Assembly (NCBI RefSeq): GCF_035917455.1
Contig: NZ_CP109078.1
Coordinates: 6,556,001-6,620,000, forward strand
Reading direction: 5' to 3'
Length of the DNA stretch: 64,000 bases
Origin: Micromonospora sp. NBC_01796
GTDB taxonomy: Bacteria; Actinomycetota; Actinomycetes; Mycobacteriales; Micromonosporaceae
The position numbers and the translations under genes are program-made. Each line of letters begins with the position of its first letter. Positions within the stretch are counted from its first letter, which is position 1. Shown here in pieces: positions 46,315-64,000 of this stretch. The notes under the pieces were generated by a model. That model saw nothing but the letters and a program-made list of their open reading frames with translations, did not search any database and was not told the DNA's origin.

Positions 46315-46697
46315 GTCTCGAAGTGTGACAGCCGGCCGTCACCGCCCACTACCGGAAAACGGCCGGCCGCGCCCACCGGCCGGTCAGGTGATCTCCCGGC
46401 CGGCGGCCACGCCGGGGCCGGCGGTGTCGCGGTACGCCAGCCAGCCCGTCCCGACGGATCAGAACATGCCGTGCGGGTTGGCGGACCGGTCGGGAACCGG
46501 TGACCGTCCATTCGGATCGCTCGGGAACGAGATATCGTGGGCGTCGGCAGTGCGCCTGCCTGCGCCCGATGTGACAGCCCACGCCTGGCCACATGAAGGG
46601 GCCAAGAGTCTCCGACTCCGCGCGACTGTTGTCGAGCTTCGGCGTGCCGGTCACGCCGCCCGTTCGGTGCGGGGCGTGGGGCTGCACCGGAGGCGTC
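46315..46697. other. Divergent intergenic region
   Basis: 383 bases between the NACHT gene and the hypothetical gene at 46698. Two GGCCGGC-rich inverted segments lie near 46355-46440 and a lower-GC patch with GAGATATCG at 46528-46536. No gene and no convincing promoter pair. Confidence 0.35.
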
Positions 46698-48342: not shown

Positions 48343-49023
48343 ATGGGCGGCGTGCGTAGCTATGGGGATCCGTGTGGTGTGGCGCGTGGACTCGATGTCC
48401 TCGGCGAGCGGTGGGCGGTGCTGGTGGTCCGCGACCTCCTGCTCGGCCCCAAGCGCTTCAACGACCTGCTCGGCGGCCTGCGCGGCGTGAGCCCGAACGT
48501 GCTCAGCCAACGGCTCCGGGAGCTGACCGAGGACGGCGTCGTCCAGCGGCGGGACCTGGGTCCGCCGACCCGCGTCCGCCTCTACGAGCTGACCGAATGG
48601 GGCCGCGCCCTGGAGCCCCTCCTGCTCCAGCTCGGACGCTGGGGAAGCCAGGCCCCACCGCTGCCCGAAGGCGCACTCGGCATCGACTCCCTGCTGCTCA
48701 GCATCAGGGCGGCCGTCGACCCGGCTCGGGCGGCGGACCTCGGCGGCGTCTACGAGTTCCGCGTCGACGCCGACACGTACGTCGCCGAGGTTGCCGACGA
48801 CTCGGTTCGGATCCGTCGCGAGACGGCACCCGGGCCGCCGGACGCGACGCTCACCACCGATATCGACACGCTCCGGGCGGTCTGCGACCACCGGATCACC
48901 CTGGGGGCGGCACTGGATTCCGGCGCGCTGCGGCTGAGCGGTGACCTGCATGCCCAGCGGCGCCTCACCGATCTGCTGATGGCCCCGTTCACGCCCCCAC
49001 CCCAGCCGACCGCCCTCACATAG
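48343..49023 (+). CDS. HxlR-family transcriptional regulator with C-terminal SCP2-like domain
   Basis: 226 residues. The HxlR winged helix (about 8-100) is clear: DPCGVARGLDVLGERWAVLV, FNDLLGGLRGVSPNVLSQRL and LYELTEWGRALEPLLLQLGRW. Residues about 125-220 resemble a sterol-carrier/SCP2-like ligand domain (YEFRVDADTYVAEV, DATLTTDIDTLRAV), as in other fused actinobacterial members. HxlR proteins often respond to reactive carbonyls or quinones. The 3' end overlaps the convergent cyclase-like gene by eight bases. Confidence 0.9.
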   Translation: MGGVRSYGDPCGVARGLDVLGERWAVLVVRDLLLGPKRFNDLLGGLRGVSPNVLSQRLRELTEDGVVQRRDLGPPTRVRLYELTEWGRALEPLLLQLGRWGSQAPPLPEGALGIDSLLLSIRAAVDPARAADLGGVYEFRVDADTYVAEVADDSVRIRRETAPGPPDATLTTDIDTLRAVCDHRITLGAALDSGALRLSGDLHAQRRLTDLLMAPFTPPPQPTALT

Positions 49024-50365
49024 TCGCGTCGGCCACCGCGATCCAGGCGTCGGCCCGGAACCCCTTGCTCGGGATCTCCACCGTCACCGGACGGAACCGA
49101 TCGGCGCGCAGGTCACGGGGCTCGTGCCGGACGATCTCGTCGTAGACGATCGCGGAGACGGCCACCACCAGGTCCGCCCCGGTCGCCTCCCGCAGCGCCG
49201 TACGGAGTGGGGTGCTGTCCAGCAGCCGGCTCACGTGGATGACGGCGTCGCCCGCGTAGCCGTTGTGCGCGGGGTAGACCAGCCCGGTGTGGATCGCCAA
49301 CCGAAGCCGCAGCCGGGCGTCGTCGCGCAGGTCCCGGTTCAGGTGCCGCAGCGCGACCGCCAGTTCGCGCAGGAGGTCGGCGACCGCCCGTGGCTCGTCG
49401 AGCCCGAGCGGGAGCAGGACCAGTTGCCCGTCGCCCTGTTCCTGCCACTGCCAGAGTCCCCGGTCGAGGCCGGCGTACCGGGCGGCGGTGTCGAGGACCT
49501 CGACGAACCGGCGTTGCAGCGCGAGCTGGCCGTGCACGTCCCGCGAGCTGTACGCCTCCGCGTCCGCTGCCAGGCACAGCCTGGTGGTGCCCGTACCGAT
49601 CGTGGAGGGGCCGTTGTGGACCGGGACGGTGACGGCGGGCGTCGGCGATCCGTCCGGGTCGAGCAGGATGATCGGGGTGGAGAACTGTTCCGGGTGACGG
49701 GTCCTCGGCCGGCTGAGCTGCATCGATCCGAGGTAGGGCCAGCGCAGGGAGGCCAGGGCGGACAGCTCTCCGGACACCGTCGTGGCACCGGGTGGCATCC
49801 GCAGGACGGCCGCCACCACGTAACTCCCGTCCGCCAACGGGCCGCCTTCCGCGTCGCGCAACGACCAGCCGAGCGAGTCGCTGCCGTACCCGTTGACCTC
49901 GACGGCGATGGTGCCGGCGAGGACCGGACCGCCCGGTGCGGCCGGCAGGTGCAGTGGGATCGGCACCGCGCCGAGCACGGCCGGCAGTCCGCCCGGACCG
50001 ATCGGGCGGGGCGGCTCCAGGTCCAGCCCGATCGCTTCCGGCCCGGCCCGGCGGAGCCGGATCGTGACGTCCAGGAACTCCTGCCGTTGCGCCCGTGCCT
50101 CCAGCGCGAACGGCAGGACCAGCCGGACGTATCGCCACTTCCGGGCGTCGCGCAGCTCCCGGAACGCGGCCGGGAAGACCTCAAGACCGATCTCGTACGC
50201 CAGCGGCCGGCCGAACGTGATCGCGCCCTGCCGGATCGGTCGGACCGTGTCCCCGCCGAGCATCTGCTCGAAGTCGCAGAGGTCCAGCCGGGCGAGCGGG
50301 TCGTCGACGGCCGGCGCGGCGACGGGTGCGGTGGTGACGCCCTCGCCCTGAACCGGCCCGGTCAT
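49016..50365 (-). CDS. Protein with C-terminal class III nucleotidyl-cyclase-like domain
   Basis: 449 residues. The first 250 are beta-rich with no recognised domain. From about 262 to 445 the sequence follows the class III adenylate/guanylate cyclase fold: D268 in CLAADAEAYSSRD and D312 in EQGDGQLVLLP are 44 residues apart, the spacing of the two metal-binding aspartates, then LRLRLAIHTGLVYPAHNGYAG and VSRLLDS. The Asn that normally follows (VNxAaRL) is His, so activity may be altered or lost. Class III-fold cyclases that make cCMP/cUMP drive Pycsar immunity. It overlaps the CHAT gene by ATGA and is the last gene of that operon. Product nucleotide and activity are inferred. Confidence 0.75.
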   Translation of the reverse strand: MTGPVQGEGVTTAPVAAPAVDDPLARLDLCDFEQMLGGDTVRPIRQGAITFGRPLAYEIGLEVFPAAFRELRDARKWRYVRLVLPFALEARAQRQEFLDVTIRLRRAGPEAIGLDLEPPRPIGPGGLPAVLGAVPIPLHLPAAPGGPVLAGTIAVEVNGYGSDSLGWSLRDAEGGPLADGSYVVAAVLRMPPGATTVSGELSALASLRWPYLGSMQLSRPRTRHPEQFSTPIILLDPDGSPTPAVTVPVHNGPSTIGTGTTRLCLAADAEAYSSRDVHGQLALQRRFVEVLDTAARYAGLDRGLWQWQEQGDGQLVLLPLGLDEPRAVADLLRELAVALRHLNRDLRDDARLRLRLAIHTGLVYPAHNGYAGDAVIHVSRLLDSTPLRTALREATGADLVVAVSAIVYDEIVRHEPRDLRADRFRPVTVEIPSKGFRADAWIAVADATM

Positions 50366-53300
50366 GCGCTCGCTCCGAACAGGACGAACCCCAGCCACAG
50401 TTCCGGGTCGTCGGGATGGTCCTCGATCAGTTCGAGGTGGGCCCGGCGAAAAGCGGCCGGTACGGGGCGCCCACCGCCGAGCCACTCCCGGTGGAAGCCG
50501 TACATGATTTCCATGCTTGTCTCCTCTCCTACCGAACAGAGGCTGGTCAGCAGCTTGGTCGGTCCGGTCAACAGAAAAGCCCTGGTCATGCCGATGATGC
50601 CGTCGGCGGCCACGGCACCGCGTCCACCTCGGCAGCAGGAGAGCACGACGAGGTCGGCGTCGAGGTGCAGTTGCCGCAGGTCGCGCATGCGGACGATCCC
50701 GTCGTGGTCGGCCGTACCGGCCAGCGCCACGAACGGCATCCGCGCCTCGGACCCGGCGAGCTGGTCCGGTGCCGGCGGCAGCTCGACCAGTTCCGCGTCG
50801 GCGTGGGTGGCCAGGTAGAGCACGTCGGCGGGGGATCCCGGTGCGCGCAGGGCGGCCAGACTCGCCTGGTTGCCGTACCGCACGTCGACGCCCGCGGTGT
50901 AGTGGCGGCTGATCGCACCGAACACCCGCTCGGTCGCGGTCAGCGCCGGGAGGGTGCCGGAGCCGTACGGCACCGGTGGCATCGGCTGCGGGTTGACCAG
51001 GGCCAGCAGGCGTGGCTCCCGAGCCGGACGGCGATCGAGCCGCTCCCGCAGCCCGCCCAGTACCGCGAGGCTGGGCAGCAGCTCGATCGCGTGCCGGGCG
51101 GCGAGCGGCCTTCCGTCCGGTCCGGTCAGGGCCGGGAACGGCACCCGGAGGGTGATCCCGTGCGGGACCACCGTGACCGGCTCGTCCGGATCGGCGGGAA
51201 GCAGCGTGGCCGTGACCGGTTCCCACAGCAGTGCCCCGAGGCGGGCGAGGATGTCCAGCATCTCCGGCCGGTCGGCGGGACCCAGATCGGTCTCCTCGGC
51301 CAGGCTGAGCAACCGGTTGACGTCCGTGGCGAGGGCGTCCGGGTCGATCACGCGTACGGCGGTCACCGGCTCGCCGTCGCCGCGTACGGTCCAGACGGTC
51401 AGCCGGGACCCGTGCAGGAAATACTCGACCACGGTGCGTCGATGGGCGCGGAGGATGCCGCGCAGGGTGGAGCCGTTCAGAGCCGGTGCGGTGCCGGGGC
51501 TCGTCCCACCGGTGGAATCGTCGCCGGTACGGTGCAGCAGGTCGGCGAAGGCTCGGGCCCGGCTCTGCTCGCTCGCCACCAGGGCTTCCCGGTGTGCGCC
51601 GAGATCGGTGAGCAGGTCGACCAGCCGGGCGAAGAACGGCTGCGCCCGTTCCGCCGCGAAGATCTTGTCCCAGTCCCGGTCGAGCAACGCCCGCCAGCGC
51701 TCGGCGTACCCGGTCAGCGGGCCGACCGCCGCGGGCGTTGCGCGCCGGACGTGCTCGGTGCTGCGGGCCACCCGCGCCCGGTGCAGCGCCGACCGCCGGT
51801 TCTCGGCGATCTCGGCGGTGGTACGCAGCACCCCGGCCGTGTCGGTCCGGTGCTGGTGGCCGGTGCCGGCTGAGCGGCGGAGGGCCGGGGCGTCGGTGGC
51901 GGGCTGGTCCGGTGCCGCTTCCCCGGCCAGGTGGCGCAGTCGTCGGGAGGTCGTGTCCAGGACCGTGATGCAGGCGTTGCCGGCGGAGGCGATGGTCGCC
52001 GGGTCGGTCAGCGCGGCCGTGGCGGCGGCGGCGACCAGGTCCCGGAGGGTGGCCGCGCAACCGGCGACGACCGCCACGGCATCGTAGGGAATCGACCCCG
52101 CCCTGTCGGTGGGTTGCACCAAGTCGGTCGAGTGCGTCGGGGCGAGCGCGCGGAGCAGATCGGCCTGGGTGTCGAGGAGTTCGGCGGTGTCCGTGGCGAG
52201 CCGGAGCAGCAGGGTGAGTCCGGGCGGGGCGGTGGCGTACCGCTGCTGGATCTCGACGGCGGTGCCGAGCGCCTCGACCAGGGCGGGATGGTCACGCAGC
52301 GCGAACGCGCCGACGATCTGGTGGTTGACCAGCAGGGCGAGGTCACCCAGTGCATGATCGGCCGCCGGGGTGCCGGGCGCGTCGGTGAGCACCGCCCGGT
52401 ACCGCGCGACGGCCGCCGCCGCGAGCGGAGCCGCCTGTGCCGGCCGTCGGGTGCTGTACAGGTCGAGTGCCAGCCGTCGAAGGGAGGCGGGACCCGTCGT
52501 GTCCGGCACCGGCGGCTGGAGCACCACCGCCCGCCAGCCCTCCCGCGAGGGCGCCAGGCCCACGGCGAGCCCGATGGTCGGCAACAGACGCAGCACCGTC
52601 GCACCGGACGGGGTGGACCAACCGGTCCGGTCCGGGTCGCTGCCGTCGGGCACCGACTCCACCGTGATCGGTCCGGTCGGGTCGTCGACCGGGAGCCACC
52701 GTCCTCTGAGCGTTGGTCGGGCCAGCCAACGGCGGTACCGCTCGACGTCGTGTCCGCGTACCGGGCCGGTGAAGGTGATCTGCCGCTGCTCGTTCCGGTC
52801 GGTGACGATCCCGAGTTCGCCGGAGAGGACCAGGTGGTCGGGGTCGAACCGGAGGGTGAGTTCGGCTGTTGTCGGCTCGTACCGGTGCTCGGCGTCGTAC
52901 CAGGTCGGGAGCGGGGCGACGGTCCGCCGTACCCGCAGTGGGGTGGCCTTGGCGAACGTCTCGGGGTCCAGGTCGCCCAGCGACCACCAGAGCTGGTCCC
53001 CATCGCCGCGACCCGCCGTGGCCAGGGTGAAGGTGAACCGGCCCCGACCGTCGGGCAGGGTGAACACCGCCTCGGCGGGCGATGGTGACCCTGCCTGGTC
53101 CAGCCCGACGAGTTCCAGGTCGAACACCGGCATCAGCAGGTCGAACGGCGTACGCGGTGGGTGTGCCGCCGAGGCGGTCCGAAGGACCTCGAACGGCCAC
53201 GGCTCGGTGACCGGGCCGGGCGGCGGTTCGGTGCCGACGGCGTCGAGCGGCCGAAGTGTCTGCGTCAGCCAGGTCACCACCGGACCGTCCAGTGTCGATC

Positions 53301-53616
53301 GAACGAGGAGCGCGGCCAGCTCGAGACGCTCGCCTGACCGGTCAGCACCGCGTGCGAGCAGCGCGTCGAGGGTGGTCCCGGCGCGGGCGGCGGACACCTC
53401 CACGGTCCCGCCGTCGTGCTGCCACCAGCGGCCGGTCAGGTCGAGGTCAGCGGCCCGGATCCGGGCGGTGCCGTCGGGCCGGAGTTCGTACCGGGCCTCG
53501 GGGGCGACCGGCTCCGGCTCGGGTTCCCACTGGGCCCGGAGCCGGTTCGCCGACCACGACCGGCGCAGGGTACGCCCGTCGACGACCTCGGCCACGTACA
53601 CCGCGTCCATGCTCAC
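50362..53616 (-). CDS. CHAT-domain (caspase-like) protease
   Basis: 1084 residues. The C-terminal CHAT domain (about 760-1084) has the catalytic His in LYLATHADAE (H938) and Cys in VVLSCCRGGRGA (C994/C995, C995 aligning with the usual LSAC position), plus GIIGMTRAFLLTGPTK, typical of family C80-like/separase-fold proteases. The first 330 residues are beta-rich and resemble nothing I know; 360-750 is helical, perhaps a degenerate repeat scaffold. CHAT proteases act in programmed-death and immune-type systems, for example with type III CRISPR effectors. The GTG start overlaps the upstream stop (GTGA); an ATG follows two codons later. Confidence 0.87.
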   Translation of the reverse strand: MSMDAVYVAEVVDGRTLRRSWSANRLRAQWEPEPEPVAPEARYELRPDGTARIRAADLDLTGRWWQHDGGTVEVSAARAGTTLDALLARGADRSGERLELAALLVRSTLDGPVVTWLTQTLRPLDAVGTEPPPGPVTEPWPFEVLRTASAAHPPRTPFDLLMPVFDLELVGLDQAGSPSPAEAVFTLPDGRGRFTFTLATAGRGDGDQLWWSLGDLDPETFAKATPLRVRRTVAPLPTWYDAEHRYEPTTAELTLRFDPDHLVLSGELGIVTDRNEQRQITFTGPVRGHDVERYRRWLARPTLRGRWLPVDDPTGPITVESVPDGSDPDRTGWSTPSGATVLRLLPTIGLAVGLAPSREGWRAVVLQPPVPDTTGPASLRRLALDLYSTRRPAQAAPLAAAAVARYRAVLTDAPGTPAADHALGDLALLVNHQIVGAFALRDHPALVEALGTAVEIQQRYATAPPGLTLLLRLATDTAELLDTQADLLRALAPTHSTDLVQPTDRAGSIPYDAVAVVAGCAATLRDLVAAAATAALTDPATIASAGNACITVLDTTSRRLRHLAGEAAPDQPATDAPALRRSAGTGHQHRTDTAGVLRTTAEIAENRRSALHRARVARSTEHVRRATPAAVGPLTGYAERWRALLDRDWDKIFAAERAQPFFARLVDLLTDLGAHREALVASEQSRARAFADLLHRTGDDSTGGTSPGTAPALNGSTLRGILRAHRRTVVEYFLHGSRLTVWTVRGDGEPVTAVRVIDPDALATDVNRLLSLAEETDLGPADRPEMLDILARLGALLWEPVTATLLPADPDEPVTVVPHGITLRVPFPALTGPDGRPLAARHAIELLPSLAVLGGLRERLDRRPAREPRLLALVNPQPMPPVPYGSGTLPALTATERVFGAISRHYTAGVDVRYGNQASLAALRAPGSPADVLYLATHADAELVELPPAPDQLAGSEARMPFVALAGTADHDGIVRMRDLRQLHLDADLVVLSCCRGGRGAVAADGIIGMTRAFLLTGPTKLLTSLCSVGEETSMEIMYGFHREWLGGGRPVPAAFRRAHLELIEDHPDDPELWLGFVLFGASA

Positions 53617-54560
53617 CCGTTCAGGTCCGGCGGCTGCCAGGCGCGCTCGAACGCCTCGTACGGGTCGTCCGGCTCATCCGCGACCAGGGTCCCCTGCACC
53701 TCCGCCCGGTAGTCGACCACCCGGTCGTCGCGCAGGCCGCTCGCCCGTACCTCGCCGGTGACGAGGGTCCCGGTGAAGTGCAGCGCCATCATCGCCCGGC
53801 GGGCCGACACCGGTAGCGGCGGCGGCACCCAGTCGAGGTGAAGGCCGGACGGCACCGGGGTCGGCGCGGTCCAACTGACGGTGGAAACGCCCGCGTGCGG
53901 GGCGGACAGTTCGGCCCGCAGCCGCCCACCGGTCAGATCCAGCGTGTACCGCCCGATGTCCTCGCGACCGCTGTCGGCGGTGGCGGCGAGCCAACTGATG
54001 TCGCCGATCACGCCGATGTCCTCGCCGAACAGCGTCACCTCGAGCAGTTCCGAACTCGTCGGCGGGAGCAGGGCCAGCTCCGCGACGACGGAACGGAACG
54101 CGACCCCGTCGGTGACCCCGGTCAGCTCCACCCGGTAGACGGCCGGTAGGGGGATCCCGCCAACCCGCCCGAAACCCGTACCGGCGCCGGGTCCCTCGGT
54201 ACGCAGGAGCTGGGTGAGGGTGACCCGCTCGTCGTGCACCAGGGTCTGGATGTGGTACTCGGCGGTCAGCCGCAGTGCCCCGTCGGCCGGTGCGATCCCG
54301 CCGGCCATCGAGGCTCGGGCGGAGCCGTCGGGGCTGTTCCGGGCGGCGACGAAGCGTACGCCGGGACCCTCCGGCCGGTGCATGCCCGGCAGCGGGAAGA
54401 GGTCGTCCCGGGCGAGTCCCGGACGCGGTACGACGAGCAGGCGCCCGTCCGGGTGCAGCCACCACCCGGTGCCCTGCAACATCCGGTACAGACCCGGCCT
54501 CGCCCGTGCGGTGCCGTGGGTGTCCACCCGGGCGGGACCATCCGGGACCAGCCGTCTCAT
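53613..54560 (-). CDS. Unknown beta-rich protein, first gene of the CHAT operon
   Basis: 315 residues. No named domain was recognised. A repeated beta pattern runs throughout (VYRVELTGVTDGVAFRSVVA, LLEVTLFGEDIGVIGDISWLA, RYTLDLTGGRLRAELSAP), with GWWLHPDGRLLVVPRPG near the start. Motifs RYxxxLTGGxLRAxL recall the beta-rich N-terminal regions of the CHAT and cyclase-like proteins, so the three may share a carrier or recognition module. ATG 54560 has GGAGG seven bases upstream. It overlaps the CHAT gene by four bases. No signal peptide. Confidence 0.7.
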   Translation of the reverse strand: MRRLVPDGPARVDTHGTARARPGLYRMLQGTGWWLHPDGRLLVVPRPGLARDDLFPLPGMHRPEGPGVRFVAARNSPDGSARASMAGGIAPADGALRLTAEYHIQTLVHDERVTLTQLLRTEGPGAGTGFGRVGGIPLPAVYRVELTGVTDGVAFRSVVAELALLPPTSSELLEVTLFGEDIGVIGDISWLAATADSGREDIGRYTLDLTGGRLRAELSAPHAGVSTVSWTAPTPVPSGLHLDWVPPPLPVSARRAMMALHFTGTLVTGEVRASGLRDDRVVDYRAEVQGTLVADEPDDPYEAFERAWQPPDLNG

Positions 54561-54756
54561 CACGCCACCTCCGCCGAACGGGCCGTCACGTCGCATCAGG
54601 AAAGCCGTCCCGCATGGGAGTCCGGGCGTTCGGCGTAGCCGTGCCGTCACGAATGCGGTCGGGAAACCCCTGCCGTCAGGAAAGCAGAAGCCCGCTCGCG
54701 CGATCCGCTCAGTTGAGGGAATCCCGACCCGTCGTCGGTGCGATGCTCGGACGGTG

Positions 54757-55326
54757 ATGGGACGACGGGCGAGACAGCAGGTACGTCGTCGCCGGGCAGC
54801 CGCGGGCGTCCGGGCGGAGCCGGGACCGGGGGAGAACTTTGCCTGGCAGGTGCATGCGGCGCAGGAGTCCTGGACGGCCCAGCTCGACGTGAAAGCCTCG
54901 ATCCTGCTCGCCTTCGAGGGCGGCACGATCGTCGTGTCGGTGCCGACCCAGGGTTGGCTCTCCGCGGCGGCCACCGACGGCTGGCCACGCTACCTCGGCC
55001 TCGCCGGGATCGTCACGTTGGTGGTGGCGATGGTCCTGACCGCGGTCACGATCGCGCCCCGGTTGGGCTCACCCCGCCGGCACCGGATCGAGTACCGCGA
55101 CAACCTCGTCTACTTCGGACACCTTCGGCTCTGGTCGCCGCCGGCCCTCGGGCGTCGGTTGGACCGGCTGACCCTTGCCGATCACAACCAGATGCTCTCC
55201 CGGCAACTGGTCGTGATGAGCCGGCTCAACTGGCGCAAACACCGATTCCTTCAGGTGTCGATCGTCGCGCTCCTGCTCGCGCTGGGTGCGCTGAGCGGTC
55301 AGGTGTTCCTCGCCTGGCAGGGCTGA
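54757..55326 (+). CDS. Pycsar-type membrane effector (PycTM, DUF5706-like)
   Basis: 189 residues. An Arg-rich start leads into ENFAWQVHAAQESWTAQLDVKASILLAFEG, where the D-x-KAS motif begins the first membrane helix; two helices (about 50-70 and 82-105), then NLVYFGHLRLWSPPALG and SRQLVVMSRLNWRKHRFLQV, and a third helix at 162-182. This layout matches the DUF5706/PycTM effector family, which opens the membrane when it binds cCMP or cUMP. No cyclase gene lies beside it in the same direction; the only cyclase-like domain is in the divergent operon whose first start is 196 bases away. It has its own T-run terminator. Family call is by pattern memory, not a search. Confidence 0.75.
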   Translation: MGRRARQQVRRRRAAAGVRAEPGPGENFAWQVHAAQESWTAQLDVKASILLAFEGGTIVVSVPTQGWLSAAATDGWPRYLGLAGIVTLVVAMVLTAVTIAPRLGSPRRHRIEYRDNLVYFGHLRLWSPPALGRRLDRLTLADHNQMLSRQLVVMSRLNWRKHRFLQVSIVALLLALGALSGQVFLAWQG

Positions 55327-55362
55327 GTCGTCCCTCCGGGTCGTGCTGTCGGGTGTCCGACC

Positions 55363-55514: not shown

Positions 55515-58061
55515 ATGGCGTCCAACGTCGAGGCAAAGATCATCGCAACCATCGAGAGTCGGGCCCGGCACCGTCCGGGCATCGAGCGGATCCGCTCCGC
55601 GTACGAGGTGATGGTCGGCCGGCTCACGTCGCTGCAACTGCTGGCCAACGAGGTACTGGGCGAGGTGCACCGCCATCCGGGGCGCCCGGAGTACGCGGAC
55701 CTGGCCGGGGACCTGGGCGCCCTGCTGTTCGGGCCGGGTTCGCTGGAGGTCCTGGTGCCGTCGGCGGTCGAGTTCGGTGGGCAACTGGGCGTGGTGCACG
55801 CGCGGGTGCACCGGGAGACGGTCAACATCGGCGTGCTCGGACGTACGCGGGCGGGCAAGAGCACCATCCTGCGGGGGATCACCGGGCAGGGGCGCAACGT
55901 CATCCCGTCCAGTACGGACTTCCCGACGACCGCCGCGCGTACCCGGATCCACCACTCGACGGACCGGCAGGAGGCGGTCATCTCGTTGCGTACCTGGGAG
56001 GCGTTCCGGGACGAGTACCTGCGGCCGTTGCACGAGGGGGCGAAGCTGGGCCCGGTGCCCGGTACGCCGGAGGAGTTCGTCGCCCGGTCGTACCCGGAGG
56101 CGGTCAACACCGACGCGGGCCCGGACCGGCAGACGGACGCCGAGGGCAAGGTACGCGCGCAACCGTTCCTCGACAAGATCAACGAGGCGCAGCGGAGCTT
56201 CGGTGACTACCGGGGCATGCTGCTCGGCGAGCGCCGGACGATGACCGTACCCCTGGCGGAGCTGCGGCCCTTCGTCGCCTATCCGGAAGGCGGGCGGGGG
56301 GACAAGCGCCTCTACCACGCGGTGCGCGACGTGCACATCTACTGCCCGTTCCGCCAGGTCGACCGGGCCCGGGTGGCACTGGTGGACCTGCCCGGCGCGA
56401 ACGAGGCGGGCCTCGACATCGACCGGCACTTCCTCAGCGACCTGAACAACGACGTCGACCTGCTGATGTGCGTCAAGAAGCCGAACTCGGACAACGTGCA
56501 CCACGGCAACGACGACTTCCAGATCCTGCAACTCGGCCAGGACGCCGGCCACGACGTCCGGCTCGCCGACTTCCTGGTCATGGTCGTGAACCGGGACAAG
56601 GCCCTGGCCGAGTCGTCCTTCCGCAACGCCTTCGCCGAGGTGGAGAAGGTGACCCGGCGCCAGGGCATCACGACGTTGGAGTGCAACGCCGCCGACGAGG
56701 CGAGCGTCCAGGACCGGGTGCTGCTCCCGGTGCTCGGTCACCTCGCCGACCGGCTCGCCGGCATGGACGCGATGGTCATCGCCGCCATGCGCCGCCGGTT
56801 GGACGAGATCATCGGTGAGACCCGTACCGTCGTCGGCCGGCTCGACCACCAGGTCAAGCGGTGGCGGCAGACCCTGCCGGACGAGGACGACCAGGTCCGC
56901 GCCCTCTCCTACGAGCTGCGAAACACCCTCGGCCAGGCGTTGTTCGAGTTGCAGGGCGCGTACGCCGACGCCGTCCGCCAGGAGACCCCGATCGAGCAGA
57001 TCGAGCTGGCCATCGGCACCGCCGAGGAGCAGGTACGCAGGTGGACCGAGGAGGGATTCGGCCGGGGGCAGCACACCGAGTGGGAGAGCAGGGCCATCGC
57101 CGGCCTGACGGTCGAACCGTTTCGCGAGTACGAGCGGCAGTTCAACCGTGCCCGGCAGGAGATCACCCGGCAGTTCCAGTTCGTCGACGCCTCCCTGCAC
57201 GCCGCCGTCGAGAAGCTCTGGGCGGACGTTGCCGTGGTCCTGCGTACGCAACTGAGCAGCGAGCTGGTGCCCGAGGGCAGCGACGCGCTGCCCCGACTGC
57301 TCGCCTCGATCGACCACCTGAAGGTGCCGGCGTTCAAGCAGGCCGCCGAGCGCCTGGCGAGCCTGCAACGCGACTACGGGAGCCTCTTCCTGCGGGTGGC
57401 GACCCCGATCATCATCAAGGTCGACCTGGGCAGGTGGAAGGGGCGCCTGGTCGGGACCGGCCCCGAGGACCCGGAACCGGTGCCGCGCTCCGACGGCCGA
57501 GCCGACCGATCCGGCGGTCGATCGACCCGGGCCGAACGCGCGTCGTCGCGAGAGGAGCGCGCGCCCGACAACGACGACGAGTGGTGGCTGAGCTACGACA
57601 AGCCCGCCGGGGGCGTACGGGAACAGCCGCCGCGAGAGTCCGCGCAACCGCCACCGGCGGCGGAGCGGTCGGCCCCGGCCGGCAACGGCTCCTACGCCCC
57701 CGGCCCGTGGTCCGGTCGGCCGGCGCAGGAGGTGCACAACCTGGAGTCGATGTTGCGCGAGGTGATCGAGGAGACGGTCGCGGAGCTCGTGAAGGACCTG
57801 CGACGCGAGTCGCTGTCGATCGCCCAGGTGCTGGCCGCGACCCTCTGGGTGTTCGCCGACGGTGCCGGTCGCACACCCGACGGCGAGTTCGAGTACCAGC
57901 GGATCTGCAAGCCGTACCGGACCAAGATCTGGCCCGGCGTGTTCGACGGGACGGTGGCGTTGATGGCGGACCGGATCGTGGCGCTCGACGACGGTGGCCG
58001 GGGCCTGGTCGACTCGGTGACCGCGCTCGACCAGGCGCTCGTGAGCAGTGCGGCCGGCTAG
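55515..58061 (+). CDS. Dynamin-like GTPase
   Basis: 848 residues. The GTPase domain (about 95-420) has G1 VLGRTRAGKST (K115), G3 VDLPGANEAG (D291) and a G4-like VVNRDK. Long helical segments (about 430-620, e.g. RQEITRQFQFVDASLHAAVEKLW) follow, as in bacterial dynamins, then a disordered Pro/Arg/Ser region (about 655-745) and a C-terminal helical domain (750-848). Bacterial dynamins remodel or seal membranes, and some act in phage defence. It heads a five-gene operon with a kinase-like, a zinc-ribbon, a vWA and a PP2C protein. ATG 55515 has only a weak AGAGG. Stop-to-start spacing to the next gene is two bases. Confidence 0.82.
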   Translation: MASNVEAKIIATIESRARHRPGIERIRSAYEVMVGRLTSLQLLANEVLGEVHRHPGRPEYADLAGDLGALLFGPGSLEVLVPSAVEFGGQLGVVHARVHRETVNIGVLGRTRAGKSTILRGITGQGRNVIPSSTDFPTTAARTRIHHSTDRQEAVISLRTWEAFRDEYLRPLHEGAKLGPVPGTPEEFVARSYPEAVNTDAGPDRQTDAEGKVRAQPFLDKINEAQRSFGDYRGMLLGERRTMTVPLAELRPFVAYPEGGRGDKRLYHAVRDVHIYCPFRQVDRARVALVDLPGANEAGLDIDRHFLSDLNNDVDLLMCVKKPNSDNVHHGNDDFQILQLGQDAGHDVRLADFLVMVVNRDKALAESSFRNAFAEVEKVTRRQGITTLECNAADEASVQDRVLLPVLGHLADRLAGMDAMVIAAMRRRLDEIIGETRTVVGRLDHQVKRWRQTLPDEDDQVRALSYELRNTLGQALFELQGAYADAVRQETPIEQIELAIGTAEEQVRRWTEEGFGRGQHTEWESRAIAGLTVEPFREYERQFNRARQEITRQFQFVDASLHAAVEKLWADVAVVLRTQLSSELVPEGSDALPRLLASIDHLKVPAFKQAAERLASLQRDYGSLFLRVATPIIIKVDLGRWKGRLVGTGPEDPEPVPRSDGRADRSGGRSTRAERASSREERAPDNDDEWWLSYDKPAGGVREQPPRESAQPPPAAERSAPAGNGSYAPGPWSGRPAQEVHNLESMLREVIEETVAELVKDLRRESLSIAQVLAATLWVFADGAGRTPDGEFEYQRICKPYRTKIWPGVFDGTVALMADRIVALDDGGRGLVDSVTALDQALVSSAAG

Positions 58062-58063
58062 CG

Positions 58064-59284
58064 ATGTCCGACGACACCTCCTGGCCGTCCCTGCGGGACT
58101 ACCTGACGGCCATGCAACGCCCGGCCGGCTCGCTGCTGGGAGAGAAGCCCGGCAGGTTCGTGCCGCTGCGCGAGGCGGACGACACGATCATGCCGGTCCA
58201 GGGGCAGTCGGCGTATGTCTTCTACGGTGACCTCGACGGCACACCGACCGTGCTGCGCTGCTTCAAACGGCCGCCGGACGAGTTTCTGCGGGAGCGTTAC
58301 CTGCGGCTGGCCCGGTACACGGCGGAGGTCGGGTGCCCGTACTTCGCCGACTTCGAGTGGTGGGACGGCGGACTCTACGCCGGTGGCCGGCACACCCCCG
58401 TGCTGTTGATGGAGGACGTCGGCGGCCGGTCCATCCGGCAGCACCTCGCCGCGGTCCGTGGCGACGAGGAGAAGCTGGACAAGCTGGCGGACCAGTGGTC
58501 CGGGCTGACCACCGACCTCACCACCAGTGGGCTGGCCCACGGCGACCTCCAGCAGGACAACATCTGGATCGCTCCGGACGACCGGCTGCGCCTGATCGAC
58601 CTCGACGCGGTGTGGGCCCCGCCCCTGGCCGACCTGCCACCCCGGGAGGTCGGCCACCCCAACTTCCAGCACCCGAAGCGGATCGCCGACGGTTACTGGG
58701 GCTCCGACGTGGACCGGTTCTCCGCCCTGGTGGTCCTCATCTCGATCAGGGCACTCGCCCGGGATCCGGGTCTGTGGGACGAGTACCACCTCGACGAAAA
58801 CCTGATCTTCACCGAGGAGGACTTCACCCGGAGCATGGCGTCGCCGATCTGGTTCCGGCTCGCCTCCAACAGCGATCCACGCGTACGCGACCTGACGGCA
58901 CAGTTGGCCGAACTCTGCGCCGCCGGGTTGGCCGGCGCGACGTCGCCGTACCCGGTGACCCGGCCGGCGCGGAGCACCGCTTCGGTCCCCCTGGTTGTCG
59001 CCCAACCGGTACCGGCCGAGCCCGAGCCGGTTCCCGTCGACCGGACGTCGCCATGGGCGGAGCCGGTGGTACTCAAGCCGCCGAAGGTCAAGGTCCCGAA
59101 GGTCAAACCACCGAAGGTCAAGCCGCCGAAGACCGGGCCGGTTCGACCCCCGACACCGAGGACGACGCCAGGCCGACCCGGTTCGACCGCACGGGTACGC
59201 CGCAAGCGTGGCTGGGTCGGGCCGCTGTTTCTGCTGGCACTGGTGGTCGGTGTGATCACGGTTATCGGATCTCTGATCGGTTGA
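58064..59284 (+). CDS. Protein kinase-like (HGDLxxxN) membrane protein
   Basis: 406 residues. The catalytic loop is LAHGDLQQDNIWI (H159, D161, N166) and the metal-binding segment is LIDLDAVW (D179/D181, in place of DFG), a pattern shared by small-molecule kinases and the divergent kinases of TerY-P systems. The N-lobe is short (SAYVFYGDLDGTPTVLRCFKRP carries a candidate Lys). After about 330 there is a Lys/Pro repeat (PKVKVPKVKPPKVKPPK), then one C-terminal membrane helix (about 385-404). Kinase plus PP2C plus vWA in one operon suggests a phosphorylation switch at the membrane. Target unknown. Confidence 0.8.
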   Translation: MSDDTSWPSLRDYLTAMQRPAGSLLGEKPGRFVPLREADDTIMPVQGQSAYVFYGDLDGTPTVLRCFKRPPDEFLRERYLRLARYTAEVGCPYFADFEWWDGGLYAGGRHTPVLLMEDVGGRSIRQHLAAVRGDEEKLDKLADQWSGLTTDLTTSGLAHGDLQQDNIWIAPDDRLRLIDLDAVWAPPLADLPPREVGHPNFQHPKRIADGYWGSDVDRFSALVVLISIRALARDPGLWDEYHLDENLIFTEEDFTRSMASPIWFRLASNSDPRVRDLTAQLAELCAAGLAGATSPYPVTRPARSTASVPLVVAQPVPAEPEPVPVDRTSPWAEPVVLKPPKVKVPKVKPPKVKPPKTGPVRPPTPRTTPGRPGSTARVRRKRGWVGPLFLLALVVGVITVIGSLIG

Positions 59285-60633
59285 TGGGGATGAGGATGAG
59301 CGACGCAGAGCTCTCGAAGCAGCGCCCCCGGCAGACTCTGTCGGTTCCGCTGCCGTACGCCGTCGGGGCCGTGCTGCTCGCGGTCGCGCTTGTGCTCGCG
59401 GTGTCGGCACTGGGCACCCGGCCGGCCGAACGACCGACGGTCATGGTCGTGGAAGCGGGCTGGCCCGTTGCGGACCAGGTGGCAGAGCGGCGACAGGAGG
59501 CCGCGCGACTGGGCGCGGACACCCTGGTCATCGTGGTCCACCTGGAACCGGCCGGTCGAGCCGCGGTCGCCGTCCCGGTGCACAAGGACGACACCCTCGA
59601 CGGCCTGGCGAAGAGGTGGGGGATCGACCCCAGGACGCTGGCGGCCGACAATCCGCGGCGCTTCGACAAGGGGAAACTGGTCAACCCGGCCGCGCCCATC
59701 TCGGTCCGGCTCACCAACCCCTACCAGGTCCCGGAAGGTCAGCAGTTGTTCCGGTCGTGGGCGGTGGGCGGGCCGGCAGCGGAAACCGGTCCGGCCGCCG
59801 TCACGGTCTTCACCACCGCCGGCGCACAGCCGGTCGTGGACGCACTGTCGTCGACCGTGGTGGTGCTCGACTCGACCGGGCAGGTGTGGGCCGGCCCGCC
59901 CGACCCTGCCCCCACCGGGGCGGCGTGGCGGTGGGTCCTGGTGGTGTTCCTGCTCATCCTGGCCGCCCTCTGCCTGGTGGTCGGACGGTTCCCGGCGGTG
60001 GGCCAGGTCGACGCGGCTCTGGCGCGGTTGACCCGGGTATGGCCGGACCGGTCCGTTCGGGGCCGGGAACCGTCCACCGGCGGGCCGTCCCCGGCGGCGC
60101 ACCCCAACCCGGGTGGGCCGTCTGGTCCCGTCCGGACACCCCCGCGCGAGGACACCACCCCGCCCACCACCATGCCGCCCGCTGCTCCGCCGATGCCCGC
60201 GACCGGTGCGGTGCCCGGGAGTGACATGCGGTCGTCGGCCGGAATACCACCGGCCGTCGCGAGTCAGGGAAAACCACCGGCCGTCGCGAGCCAACCGGGA
60301 AACCGGCGCACGCACGCGGGGTACGACGAGCCGGAGCAGCCACGACGGCCGGCTCCGGCTCCGGCTCCGGCTCCGGCCAATGCTCCGGCTCCGGTCGCGG
60401 CTCCGGCTACCGGCACGGCTGCCGGGTTCGACTTCACCCCCTGGATCGACCGGCAACGAGGGCCGGAATCAGCCGCCCAGTGCCCCAGGTGCTTCAACTT
60501 CGGTCTGTTCCGCCAAGAGAGCGAATACCGATGCGACCGGTGCGGCGAGGCGGGCAGGGTCGCATCGGGGGTCTGGCCCGGCGTGGTGCTGGGCGGCGCC
60601 GGGACGTACGGCGGCAGCAAGCCCAGTCACTGA
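59284..60633 (+). CDS. Membrane protein with LysM-like and zinc-ribbon segments
   Basis: 449 residues. One membrane helix (about 24-44), then an extracytoplasmic or luminal part with a LysM-like element (HKDDTLDGLAKRWGIDPRTL, about 100-145), a second helix (about 219-240), a long Pro/Ala-rich linker including APAPAPAPANAPAPV, and a C-terminal zinc ribbon with two CxxC knuckles (CPRC...CDRC). The ribbon may dock the adjacent vWA protein, as zinc ribbons do in TerY-like proteins. Start ATG 59284 overlaps the kinase stop (TGATG); ATG 59296 with GGGGATGAGG upstream is an alternative. No enzymatic motif. Confidence 0.75.
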   Translation: MGMRMSDAELSKQRPRQTLSVPLPYAVGAVLLAVALVLAVSALGTRPAERPTVMVVEAGWPVADQVAERRQEAARLGADTLVIVVHLEPAGRAAVAVPVHKDDTLDGLAKRWGIDPRTLAADNPRRFDKGKLVNPAAPISVRLTNPYQVPEGQQLFRSWAVGGPAAETGPAAVTVFTTAGAQPVVDALSSTVVVLDSTGQVWAGPPDPAPTGAAWRWVLVVFLLILAALCLVVGRFPAVGQVDAALARLTRVWPDRSVRGREPSTGGPSPAAHPNPGGPSGPVRTPPREDTTPPTTMPPAAPPMPATGAVPGSDMRSSAGIPPAVASQGKPPAVASQPGNRRTHAGYDEPEQPRRPAPAPAPAPANAPAPVAAPATGTAAGFDFTPWIDRQRGPESAAQCPRCFNFGLFRQESEYRCDRCGEAGRVASGVWPGVVLGGAGTYGGSKPSH

Positions 60634-60634
60634 A

Positions 60635-60642
60635 AAGGAGGT
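60635..60642 (+). promoter_or_regulatory. Perfect Shine-Dalgarno of the vWA gene
   Basis: AAGGAGGT six bases before the ATG, much stronger than those of its operon neighbours, implying high expression of the vWA protein. Confidence 0.7.
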
Positions 60643-60648
60643 ACGGAA

Positions 60649-61431
60649 ATGCAGGTGAATCGCAAGACCCCCGGTTGCTTCGTGTTCCTGCTCGACCAGT
60701 CGGCGTCGATGAGCCAGCCGATGTTGGGCGCCGAGAAGAAGACCAAGGCCCAGGCGTTGGCGGACATCGTCAACGAGCTTCTCCAGTCGATCGTCATGCG
60801 CAGCGTCAAGTCCCGCAACGAGCCGCCCCGGCACTACTTCGACATCGGTCTGATCGGGTACGGCACCGGCGCACGCCCGCTCTTCTCCGGTGCACTGGCC
60901 GGCCGCCTGCTGGCTTCCGTCGCCGAGGTCGCCGCCGGAAAGATCCGGGTCGACCGCGACGCGGACGGTCACGTCCAGCCGATCTGGTTCGACCCGGTGG
61001 CCTCGGGGGTGACCCACATGTGCGCGGCCCTCGACCTCGCGGGCAAGATCGTGGAGGGGTGGACGAACAGCCATCCGGAGTCCGGCCCGCCGATCATCGT
61101 GAACATCACCGACGGGTACGCGACCGACGGCGACCCGGTCCCGGTGTCGCGCCGGATCACCTCCGGCGGCACCAACCACGGCTCGACCCTGTTGTTCAAC
61201 ATCGCGCTCTCGTCCAGCGAGGCGACCACGGTGGCCTACCCGTCGACCGACCGTGCCCTCACCGACGAGCGGGCCAAGGCCCTGTTCCAGATGTCCTCCC
61301 CGCTACCGCCGCTGATGCGCCAGTACGCGGCCGAACTCGGCGCCGACGTACAGGACAACGCCCGAGGGTTCGTCTACAACGCCGACCTGGAAGCGATGAT
61401 CCAGGCGATCGACGTCGGCACCAGGACCTGA
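60649..61431 (+). CDS. von Willebrand factor A (TerY-like) protein
   Basis: 260 residues, a single vWA domain. The metal site is complete at the start: LLDQSASM gives DxSxS (D16, S18, S20), with a Thr in GVTHMCAAL and an Asp in VNITDGYATDGD. TerY-type vWA proteins act as scaffolds or regulators with a kinase and a PP2C phosphatase, both of which flank this gene. It starts after a perfect AAGGAGGT and ends five bases before the phosphatase start. Confidence 0.87.
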   Translation: MQVNRKTPGCFVFLLDQSASMSQPMLGAEKKTKAQALADIVNELLQSIVMRSVKSRNEPPRHYFDIGLIGYGTGARPLFSGALAGRLLASVAEVAAGKIRVDRDADGHVQPIWFDPVASGVTHMCAALDLAGKIVEGWTNSHPESGPPIIVNITDGYATDGDPVPVSRRITSGGTNHGSTLLFNIALSSSEATTVAYPSTDRALTDERAKALFQMSSPLPPLMRQYAAELGADVQDNARGFVYNADLEAMIQAIDVGTRT

Positions 61432-61436
61432 GACCG

Positions 61437-62222
61437 ATGACCACGGTCGGTCGGACGGACGGCTTGAGGTTCGTCGCACACGCCTACTCGTTCCCCAAGG
61501 ACGAGGACCATCCCACCGAGTGGGAGGACGGTGCCGGCCACTATCTGGGGCGCGGGCGCGGCTGGTTCGCGGTGGCCGACGGCGCCAGCAGCGGATTCCA
61601 CGTCAAGGAGTGGGCGAAGCGGCTGGTCACGGGGTTCGTGACCCGACGGCTGGATTCCTCGGTCGCGTTGCAGGACCTCATAGACGAGGAGGGTGAGCGC
61701 TGGTCGGACACGCGGGACGCTCCGACCCGTGAGCAGGTCGAGCAGCAGTGGTGGCAGGAGGCGGCACCGCTGCGACAGGACACCGCCGCGGCGTTCGTCG
61801 GCGCGTACGTCAAGGCGACCGGTCCGCGTACCGGGATCTTCCGGGCTTTCGCGGTCGGGGACTGCTGCCTGATGCACGTCAGGGAGTCGACGCTGCTGAT
61901 GTCGTTCCCGTTGTCCAGTCCGGAGGCCTTCGCCCAGAATCCGGCGCTCGTCTACAGTCGGCCGGAGAAGATGCCGGCGGGCGTCGAGGGCATCCAGCTC
62001 TCGTCGGGTCAGCTCCGTCCGGGGGACATGCTGATCCTGGCCAGTGACCGGCTCAGCCAGTGCCTGCTGTGGCACTCCGCGAGGTCCGACGGGGCGGTGT
62101 GGGAGGCGCTGCGGGCGGTCGACCGGCAGTCCTTCGAGACTCTGGTACGCGCCCTGCGTACCCACGGCAGCCTGGAGGTCGACGACGTCACCCTGCTCCG
62201 GATCGCCGTGCTCGCGGAGTAG
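61437..62222 (+). CDS. PP2C-family phosphatase-like protein
   Basis: 261 residues. WFAVADGASSGFHVKEWAK holds the DG metal motif, FRAFAVGDCCLMHV the GDC/GDS motif, MLILASDRLSQCLL the ASDG-like motif (with R for G), and LEVDDVTLLRIAV the final DD/DN motif. So the acidic residues for two metals are conserved with small variations. It presumably reverses phosphorylation by the operon's kinase. Last gene of the operon, followed by a hairpin. Confidence 0.85.
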   Translation: MTTVGRTDGLRFVAHAYSFPKDEDHPTEWEDGAGHYLGRGRGWFAVADGASSGFHVKEWAKRLVTGFVTRRLDSSVALQDLIDEEGERWSDTRDAPTREQVEQQWWQEAAPLRQDTAAAFVGAYVKATGPRTGIFRAFAVGDCCLMHVRESTLLMSFPLSSPEAFAQNPALVYSRPEKMPAGVEGIQLSSGQLRPGDMLILASDRLSQCLLWHSARSDGAVWEALRAVDRQSFETLVRALRTHGSLEVDDVTLLRIAVLAE

Positions 62223-62223
62223 A

Positions 62224-62263
62224 GCGGGGGCGGTGGCCGACGGCAATCGGTCGCCGCCCCCGC
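62224..62263 (+). terminator. Terminator of the dynamin-kinase-vWA-PP2C operon
   Basis: Perfect stem GCGGGGGCGG / CCGCCCCCGC starting one base after the PP2C stop, with a partly paired 20-base interior. Confidence 0.7.
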
Positions 62264-62323
62264 CCCGCCGGTGAACTTTCCCTCGCTGACACTCAACCTT
62301 CGACCCCTCGGTGACCTCTCATC

Positions 62324-62337
62324 CGTTGACGTCAACG
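62324..62337. promoter_or_regulatory. 14-base palindrome before the sigma factor gene
   Basis: CGTTGACGTCAACG, a perfect palindrome ending 20 bases before the GTG start. Likely a regulator binding site. Confidence 0.45.
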
Positions 62338-62357
62338 TGCAGGAGGGACCGGACAAG

Positions 62358-62873
62358 GTGAGTGATGACGGATTCCGGGAGTTCGTCGAGGTTCGTTACG
62401 GCGACCTTCTCCGTACCGCCTACCTGCTGACCGGATCACGGGACGCGGCACAGGACCTGCTCCAGAACGCCCTGGTCGTCACGATGCGCCGCTGGCGGCA
62501 GGTCGACGAACCGATGGCGTACGTCCGGCGGGTCATGGTCAACGAGCGAACGAGCCTGTGGCGGCGGCTCGGCTCGCGTGAGCTGCTGACCGCGATCGTG
62601 CCGCAGCGCGAACAGCCCGACGGCACCGATCGCCTCGCCGAGCGGGACCAACTGTTGACCGCGTTGCGCCGGCTGCCGGCCCGGATGCGGGCGGTGCTGG
62701 TCCTGCGGTACTGGGAAGAGCTGTCCGAGATGGAAACGGCGCAGCTTCTCGGCTGTTCCGTGGGCACCGTGAAGAGTCAGGCGTCCCGGGGGCTGGCCCG
62801 TCTCCGTGACGTGCTCGGAGAGTCCGGCGATTCGCAGGTGCCGTCGAAAGTGACCGTGGGAGGGATCGCATGA
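62358..62873 (+). CDS. SigE-family ECF RNA polymerase sigma factor
   Basis: 171 residues. Region 2 has FVEVRYGDLLRTAYLLTGSRDAAQDLLQNALV; region 4 has LRRLPARMRAVLVLRYWEELSEMETAQLLGCSVGTVKSQASRGLARL. This is the actinobacterial SigE group of short ECF sigma factors. GTG 62358 has AGGAGG 11 bases upstream, a little far but the only fitting start. It overlaps the next gene by ATGA, the usual sigma/anti-sigma arrangement. Confidence 0.9.
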   Translation: MSDDGFREFVEVRYGDLLRTAYLLTGSRDAAQDLLQNALVVTMRRWRQVDEPMAYVRRVMVNERTSLWRRLGSRELLTAIVPQREQPDGTDRLAERDQLLTALRRLPARMRAVLVLRYWEELSEMETAQLLGCSVGTVKSQASRGLARLRDVLGESGDSQVPSKVTVGGIA

Positions 62874-64000
62874 GCGTGGACGAGTTGCGGGCCGGGTTCC
62901 GGCGGCTCACCGATCCGGTGCTGCCGAGCGAAGACCCGTACGGCGAAGTGCTGCGCCGGGCGCGCAGCCGTCGGCGGAACAGGTTCGCCGGATTCGGCGC
63001 GGCCGGTGCCGCCCTTCTTGCCCTGGCGCTGTCCGGACCGGCCATCGTCGGCGTCGGCGGCTGGCAGGGTGCGCCTCCTTCCGAGGGGTACCCGGTCGAG
63101 TCGGAGTGGACCTGGCGACTGATCGACTCCCCGACGCGGGGCAACCTCGCGGGCGACACCGAGTTGGTGTCCGACCTGACCCGGGCGCTCGCCGACGAGT
63201 CCCCACTGCCCGGGGTGAAGGTCCTCTTCGTCCACGATTTCGCCCGGTCGCGCGTCGCCCTGGTCGCCGACTACTCCGACTCGGCCGCGAGTTTGTCCGT
63301 CCTCCGCGAGGACCGTGGCGCATCGGCCGGCGATCTCGCCCGGAGCGACGGACTCCGCAACGCCCGGCTGGACCCCTTCGTCAACGCTCACGGTCTGCTC
63401 GGCGACGAGGAGGTACGGGTGTCGTTCTGGCAACTCGGGCTGGCTCCCGCCGGTTGCACGGTGGCAACTTCGGAGCACGCGACGATCGGCCCGGACGGTG
63501 CGGTCCGGCGGGTCTGGCAGCCCGCCCCGACCGGGGACTACGCGGTGAGTGAGGAGATGCCGGCTGCTCGATGGCGGACGACCTGCGACGGCGTCGTGCG
63601 TCAGGAGGGACCGGTGGAGCCCGGAATCGACGAGATCGACGATCTTGCTGCGCCGTCCGATCCGGAGGCGGCTTCCGACTGGACGACCCTCCTTGACCGG
63701 CCGACCGGGCAGGCGGCGCTGGCGTCGTACCAGGAACTGGTGGGACCGGCCGGTCTGGCGGCCACCAGGCCGGTCGTTCGCTGGGCGGGCACCGTCACCG
63801 ACGGGGCGCACGCGGTGCCGGCGGCACTGCTCGGGCCGGCGACCGGCCCCGGCGCGGTGGTGCTCCAGGTCGGCGCCGAGTCGAAGGCCCTGGTGGCCCT
63901 GGTCGACAACAACCAAGCCACTCCGGACGACTCAGCGACCGGGGCGGCGAACCGCGCCGGATGGTCGCTGGTCGCACCGGGGACCGCGGACGACTCAGGC
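62870..64000 (+). CDS. Membrane protein in the anti-sigma position (3' end off window)
   Basis: At least 377 residues; the frame is open to the window end. A short cytoplasmic N-terminus (MSVDELRAGFRRLTDPVLPS) with a basic RRARSRRRNR precedes one membrane helix (about 40-62). The rest is extracellular and Ala/Asp-rich, with two Cys (in APAGCTV and TTCDGV) that could form a disulphide. There is no zinc-binding HxxxCxxC anti-sigma motif, so the anti-sigma role rests on position and topology only. Translation is coupled to the sigma gene. Confidence 0.75.
   Translation, partial: MSVDELRAGFRRLTDPVLPSEDPYGEVLRRARSRRRNRFAGFGAAGAALLALALSGPAIVGVGGWQGAPPSEGYPVESEWTWRLIDSPTRGNLAGDTELVSDLTRALADESPLPGVKVLFVHDFARSRVALVADYSDSAASLSVLREDRGASAGDLARSDGLRNARLDPFVNAHGLLGDEEVRVSFWQLGLAPAGCTVATSEHATIGPDGAVRRVWQPAPTGDYAVSEEMPAARWRTTCDGVVRQEGPVEPGIDEIDDLAAPSDPEAASDWTTLLDRPTGQAALASYQELVGPAGLAATRPVVRWAGTVTDGAHAVPAALLGPATGPGAVVLQVGAESKALVALVDNNQATPDDSATGAANRAGWSLVAPGTADDSG

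Follow-up and report, generated by a model that had tools for sequence, protein, structure and literature searches.

Dynamin-like GTPases take part in bacterial defense, as in the Eleos (LeoBC) system, and a dynamin of Bacillus subtilis reportedly confers phage resistance. Phosphorylation modules of the TerY-P type are hypothesized to be metal-sensing, phosphorylation-dependent switches, and the kinase of the stand-alone antiphage modules carries an OB fold, according to the available part of PMC11090510. The sequence-only reading had described TerY-P as known from computational surveys, which is true but incomplete, as protection against phage is reported in the accessible text of PMC10889362; that of PMC7699616 also attributes antiphage activity to TerY-P. 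No client of TerY-P-like phosphorylation modules is named in the portions of PMC11090510 and PMC7699616 at hand. Actinobacterial GAP1-N2 systems with linked kinase, PP2C, and vWA genes form a "third theme" in the available sections of PMC7159879; the word dynamin does not occur in that paper.

Here, we analyzed a locus in which a dynamin gene precedes a TerY-P-like gene set. It lies in a 64-kb stretch of DNA (the window), to which all coordinates refer. The combination of a dynamin with such a triad was initially thought to be undescribed, and in keeping with this, searches of the open-license literature showed no paper joining the two; two papers name both separately in their available text. 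Open reading frame coordinates and RNA folding bore out the predicted layout, i.e., five tightly spaced genes on the same strand followed by a hairpin (Table 1). The junctions from P0001 to P0005 measure 2 bases, a 1-base overlap, 15 bases, and 5 bases, and the hairpin has a minimum free energy of -46.1 kcal/mol and a z-score of -4.25 (68 nt folded), making it the probable end of the operon. The promoter scan yielded no sigma-70-like site. The composition of the operon is typical of the window, with 29 of 58 window stretches deviating more, and thus gives no sign of recent transfer; inspection by eye of the genes predicted on either side revealed no integrase or transposase.

Table 1. Features of the operon and its flanks, in window coordinates
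Feature	Position	Strand	Evidence
P0001, dynamin-superfamily GTPase, 848 aa	55515..58061	+	ORF, Pfam, fold model
P0002, Ser/Thr kinase-like protein, 406 aa	58064..59284	+	ORF, PADLOC, helix prediction
P0003, membrane/zinc-ribbon protein, 449 aa	59284..60633	+	ORF, helix prediction, alignment
P0004, TerY-type vWA protein, 260 aa	60649..61431	+	ORF, PADLOC, MIDAS alignment
P0005, PP2C-type phosphatase, 261 aa	61437..62222	+	ORF, PADLOC, aligned aspartates
Hairpin 3' of the last stop codon, 17-bp stem	62224..62263	+	RNA folding
PycTM-type two-helix membrane protein, upstream neighbor (ATG 54757 is one possible start)	54757..55326	+	
CHAT-domain (caspase-like) protein, divergent neighbor	50362..53616	-	

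P0001 comprises a GTPase domain (residues about 100 to 415), a long helical stalk, a linker (about 647 to 729), and C-terminal helices. Its identity as a dynamin, proposed from the outset, is marginal in Pfam, where Dynamin_N falls just under the cut-off (E = 1.4e-5) and MMR_HSR1 passes its own. A fold search was needed because the sole PDB sequences matched by a P0001 profile were four chains, helical or repeat-like and unrelated to it. Using Foldseek with an AlphaFold2 model (mean pLDDT 83.9, from an alignment of 35 sequences), we found SynDLP, BDLP, IniA, and the yeast and human mitofusins among the best PDB matches, with E values from 2e-11. TM-scores by query length were low (0.16 to 0.27 among the 50 matches listed), as may be expected for multi-domain dynamins in different states. 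The GTPase motifs G106, G109, G114-K115-S116, D291-L292-P293-G294, and N359 are invariant in 35 aligned rows and, together with the stalk fold of the model, confirm the predicted protein as a dynamin-superfamily GTPase. P0001 thus has the GTPase and helical stalk fold of BDLP, SynDLP, IniA, and the DLP pair, but differs from them by its low identity (about 10 to 13%), by its link to a phospho-signaling cassette, and by the absence of any predicted membrane helix or hydrophobic membrane segment. Eleos was ruled out, as the LeoBC profile matches only residues 100 to 124 of P0001, i.e., the G1 region (E = 9e-4). In a viral fold library, the dynamin-family matches among the best rows came from giant viruses only and were uninformative.

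PADLOC profiles of the TerY-P set match the next kinase, vWA, and PP2C genes, confirming the proposed triad. P0002 matches STK_OB (2e-40) over the kinase half only, i.e., profile positions 58 to 284 of 562. It carries the HGDLQxxN motif and the aspartate motif that follows, and it has, as had been predicted, a Pro/Lys-rich stalk and a membrane helix, a single one that lies at the extreme C terminus (residues 388 to 406); no C-terminal OB fold or zinc ribbon was found. In an alignment placed by eye, the invariant basic residue R65 occupies the position expected of the beta-3 lysine. Given this replacement and the absence of the OB fold found in phage-tested TerY-P kinases, P0002 is a putative active kinase. 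P0004 matches TerY (4.8e-65) and has a complete MIDAS (D16-S18-S20, T122, and D155) that is invariant in three aligned vWA proteins. P0005 matches the PP2C of the set (9.8e-23), with aspartates conserved in six aligned sequences at the places expected of metal ligands (D31, D48, D204, and D249/D250). The operon therefore resembles TerY-P in all three components, but it departs from it in that its kinase bears a stalk and a membrane helix rather than an OB fold or a zinc ribbon of its own, its zinc ribbon resides on a separate membrane protein, and a dynamin is added.

That separate protein, P0003, firmly has two membrane helices (residues 26 to 44 and 218 to 236) flanking a middle part, followed by a Pro-rich linker and a C-terminal zinc ribbon with two CxxC pairs (C400, C403, C417, and C420). 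The sequence-only reading was right about a membrane protein with a zinc ribbon but not about a LysM domain, which scores 13.9 bits in Pfam against a cut-off of 20.9 and has no Pfam match in four P0003-related proteins; it was rejected as a firm domain.

The triad recurs elsewhere. Run against 296 class genomes, the TerY profile yielded 27 places in 21 genomes, including the window's own. The 26 others, each taken with 5 to 20 kb of sequence that in some cases ended at a contig end, all carry kinase, PP2C, and vWA genes, and HMM searches of these regions detected a dynamin or a DO-GTPase2-like gene at none of them. The triad thus does not need a dynamin. Seven have the kinase first, as in the window (order A), and 19 have the order vWA-PP2C-kinase. 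A zinc-ribbon motif is present in the ORF between kinase and vWA in five of the seven order-A triads (L075, L077, L079, L089, and L100) and was not found there in L076 and L078; its four cysteines are kept in all five aligned rows (window, L013, L077, L089, and L100). Genes 2 to 5 therefore represent a recurring four-gene cassette and not a novelty of the window, so the membrane zinc-ribbon protein is not what makes the combination undescribed, as had been suggested. Nor are kinase/PP2C/vWA sets linked to actinobacterial GTPase systems new, having been published in PMC7159879, as its available text shows. Reading by eye, we noted opposite-strand genes of WXG100-like and Rhs-repeat-like type next to two order-A cassettes, L078 and L100.

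The dynamin is the unusual part of the operon, as most of its relatives pair with a second, DO-GTPase2-like GTPase instead. Scanning genome contigs with the single dynamin protein retrieved no relative, and scanning with an alignment of three dynamins gave 35 related loci. A DO-GTPase2-like gene neighbors the dynamin at 29 of these, 26 of which also have a GAP-like gene; both labels are given by resemblance. The kinase cassette is present at one locus only (L013, Streptomyces griseoflavus JCM 4479), and none of these genes was seen at the five loci L041 to L045. Among six partners scanned, the Pfam DO-GTPase2 cut-off was reached by P0013, P0014, and L014, the last exactly at the cut-off; P0011 and L015 scored under it, and the family was not listed for L046. 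No GAP1 family was listed in a Pfam scan of the third genes at dynamin loci. In L014 (Nocardia) and L015 (Paractinoplanes), the DO-GTPase2-like domain lies behind a zinc-ribbon-like stretch, itself preceded in L014 by a kinase-like stretch; these stretches were recognized by eye and have no Pfam match. All four other dynamins of the class have a DO-GTPase2-like match in the 20 kb of sequence taken, on the opposite strand at L124, and weaker kinase matches occur at L124 and L122 (4.9e-32 and 8.8e-13). Comparing dynamin neighborhoods, as the sequence-only reading advised, thus revealed a partner that it had missed. Some relatives are found on plasmid records of Streptomyces, Nonomuraea, and cyanobacteria (L002 to L008; 10 records), in part beside DO-GTPase2-like genes.

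These neighborhoods recall the GAP1-N2 DO-GTPase systems, which, like the operon, combine a PP2C and a vWA protein with an actinobacterial kinase that bears membrane helices or a zinc ribbon, all linked to a GTPase. The side genes of the third theme are present in the window, and relatives of P0001 adjoin DO-GTPase2-like genes. The operon differs in that its GTPase is a dynamin and in that HMM searches of the 64-kb window and of L013 gave no DO-GTPase2-like or GAP-like match. Our best reading is that it adds a variant to the TerY-P and GTPase-centered systems, the new part being the joining of a dynamin to the cassette.

This pairing occurs in only two operons among the loci examined, those of the window and of L013. 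Both have the five genes in the same order, with PADLOC TerY-P profiles matching all three triad genes in each, and the dynamin-kinase junction of L013 measures 3 bases. The proteins are 36% (dynamin), 42% (kinase), 43% (vWA), and 31% (PP2C) identical. The two dynamins are sisters in a tree of 42 rows (99/93) and form one group with L014 and L015 (100/100); the kinases are also sisters (SH-aLRT 96), nested in the order-A triads (98). The vWA tree recovered the order-A group (98) and did not resolve the pair as sisters, the window's vWA being closest to that of the dynamin-free triad L089, at 51% identity; in the PP2C tree, no starred set contains the window's protein. Long branches were flagged, so these positions are less sure than the support values.

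The two kinase-linked dynamins also have the longest linkers. Residues 647 to 729 of P0001 contain Ser/Thr and are probably disordered because their confidence in the AlphaFold2 model is very low. Measured in 35 dynamin rows on the aligned part corresponding to window residues 636 to 736, the linker has 101 residues in the window and 79 in L013; L014 and L015 follow with 49 and 45, and the other 31 range from 13 to 44 (median 22). The long linker of P0001, a candidate phospho-site region, could thus be a phospho-switch, its phosphorylation being a prediction only.

The operon is accessory, as had been anticipated. Its dynamin is present in one of three genomes of the genus, the own one, and is lacking in two congeners; in two of 21 relatives, own included, the other (G011) being of the DO-GTPase2-like type; and in five of 296 class genomes, own included, possibly a lower bound because three first-look candidates were scored per genome. 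A TerY-type vWA is found in one of 25 relatives, i.e., the own genome, and apart from this genome only G316 has both genes, on different contigs. The congener G002 matches the window at 46331, 49027-49258, 55183-55342, and 68165, with 134, 1, and 67 bases between successive matching blocks. Segment 55343-68164 (12.8 kb), which holds the operon, is thus absent at the syntenic site of G002, by insertion or loss. These patchy counts and the missing segment rule out a core developmental locus of actinomycetes.

To the left of the operon, a cluster at 49016-55326 encodes P0006, the CHAT protein, one further protein, and the PycTM membrane protein. P0006 has no Pfam or PDB match, and by eye we take it to resemble class III cyclases; among the loci retrieved, it has homologues at two dynamin loci, L034 and L019. 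At 8 of the 43 dynamin loci other than the window (L003, L007, L017, L019, L022, L035, L036, and L037), a CHAT gene lies no more than about 10 kb from the dynamin, versus 0 of 26 triad-only loci, a weak contrast given a profile seeded from a dynamin locus, near-copy rows, and unequal flank lengths. CHAT proteins are possible effectors of the dynamin and DO-GTPase2-like systems.

Antiphage or other conflict defense is the most likely role of the operon, with the dynamin as the likely client of the cassette. We hold the chances about even that the five genes form one operon and one machine, i.e., a membrane-tethered phospho-signaling cassette with a dynamin client for defense or conflict. P0003 and the tail-anchored kinase P0002 would form a membrane signaling complex with the vWA protein as adaptor. 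An envelope or phage cue would shift the kinase/PP2C balance and change phosphorylation of the disordered linker of the dynamin, or of the vWA protein, which would bring the dynamin to the membrane or trigger its assembly there. Once assembled, it might block infection by membrane disruption, remodeling, or sealing; the sequence-only reading had conjectured phospho-controlled remodeling or sealing at an injury. More tentatively, the dynamin may be a phospho-gated immune effector whose linker is switched by the membrane kinase and PP2C, with the vWA protein as phospho-adaptor and the cassette replacing the DO-GTPase2-like partner. In either form, the operon offers a candidate client for TerY-P-like modules, a dynamin whose gene ends 2 bases before that of the kinase, and would, if the proposal is true, link dynamin-based and GTPase-centered bacterial immunity.

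Other explanations were weighed against this defense machine. An IniA-like envelope-stress or membrane-maintenance system, in which wall or membrane damage is sensed by the cassette and the dynamin acts to seal or remodel the membrane, with no role against phage, would fit the fold match of P0001 with IniA, the membrane helices in two components, and the ECF sigma factor gene at 62271, although the latter lies beyond the hairpin. We consider it rather unlikely, since the patchy presence of the dynamin and the TerY-type vWA (5 and 21 of 296 genomes) is unlike housekeeping and the three triad proteins match defense-module profiles. The proximity of CHAT genes and P0006 homologues to dynamins, together with the DO-GTPase2-like neighbors of 29 of 35 related dynamins, might instead reflect a GTPase-centered conflict system of the kind described in PMC7159879. 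In it, the dynamin would replace the DO-GTPase, and a switch for killing or altruistic death would work by means of a nearby CHAT or PycTM effector, not by membrane remodeling through the dynamin. This appears less probable still. The CHAT gene is divergent, the CHAT/PycTM cluster is reduced in G002 to two scars of its own (232 and 160 bp), and no CHAT, PycTM, or P0006 match was found in 22 kb around the L013 operon; only some partners reach the DO-GTPase2 cut-off, and the CHAT profile was dynamin-seeded, with several dynamin loci being near-copies.

It is improbable that the dynamin gene merely lies upstream of an independent triad with no working link. The lack of a dynamin at all 26 other triads and the single cassette among 35 related dynamins, most of them next to a DO-GTPase2-like gene, would agree with chance, but the same gene order and a 2- to 3-base dynamin-kinase junction are kept in two genomes despite 31 to 43% identity, and the two operons are sisters in the dynamin and kinase trees.

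On the right flank (62271-64000), the ECF sigma factor gene after the hairpin is followed by a gene that runs past the window end and, by eye, possibly encodes an anti-sigma partner; both lie within the segment absent from G002.
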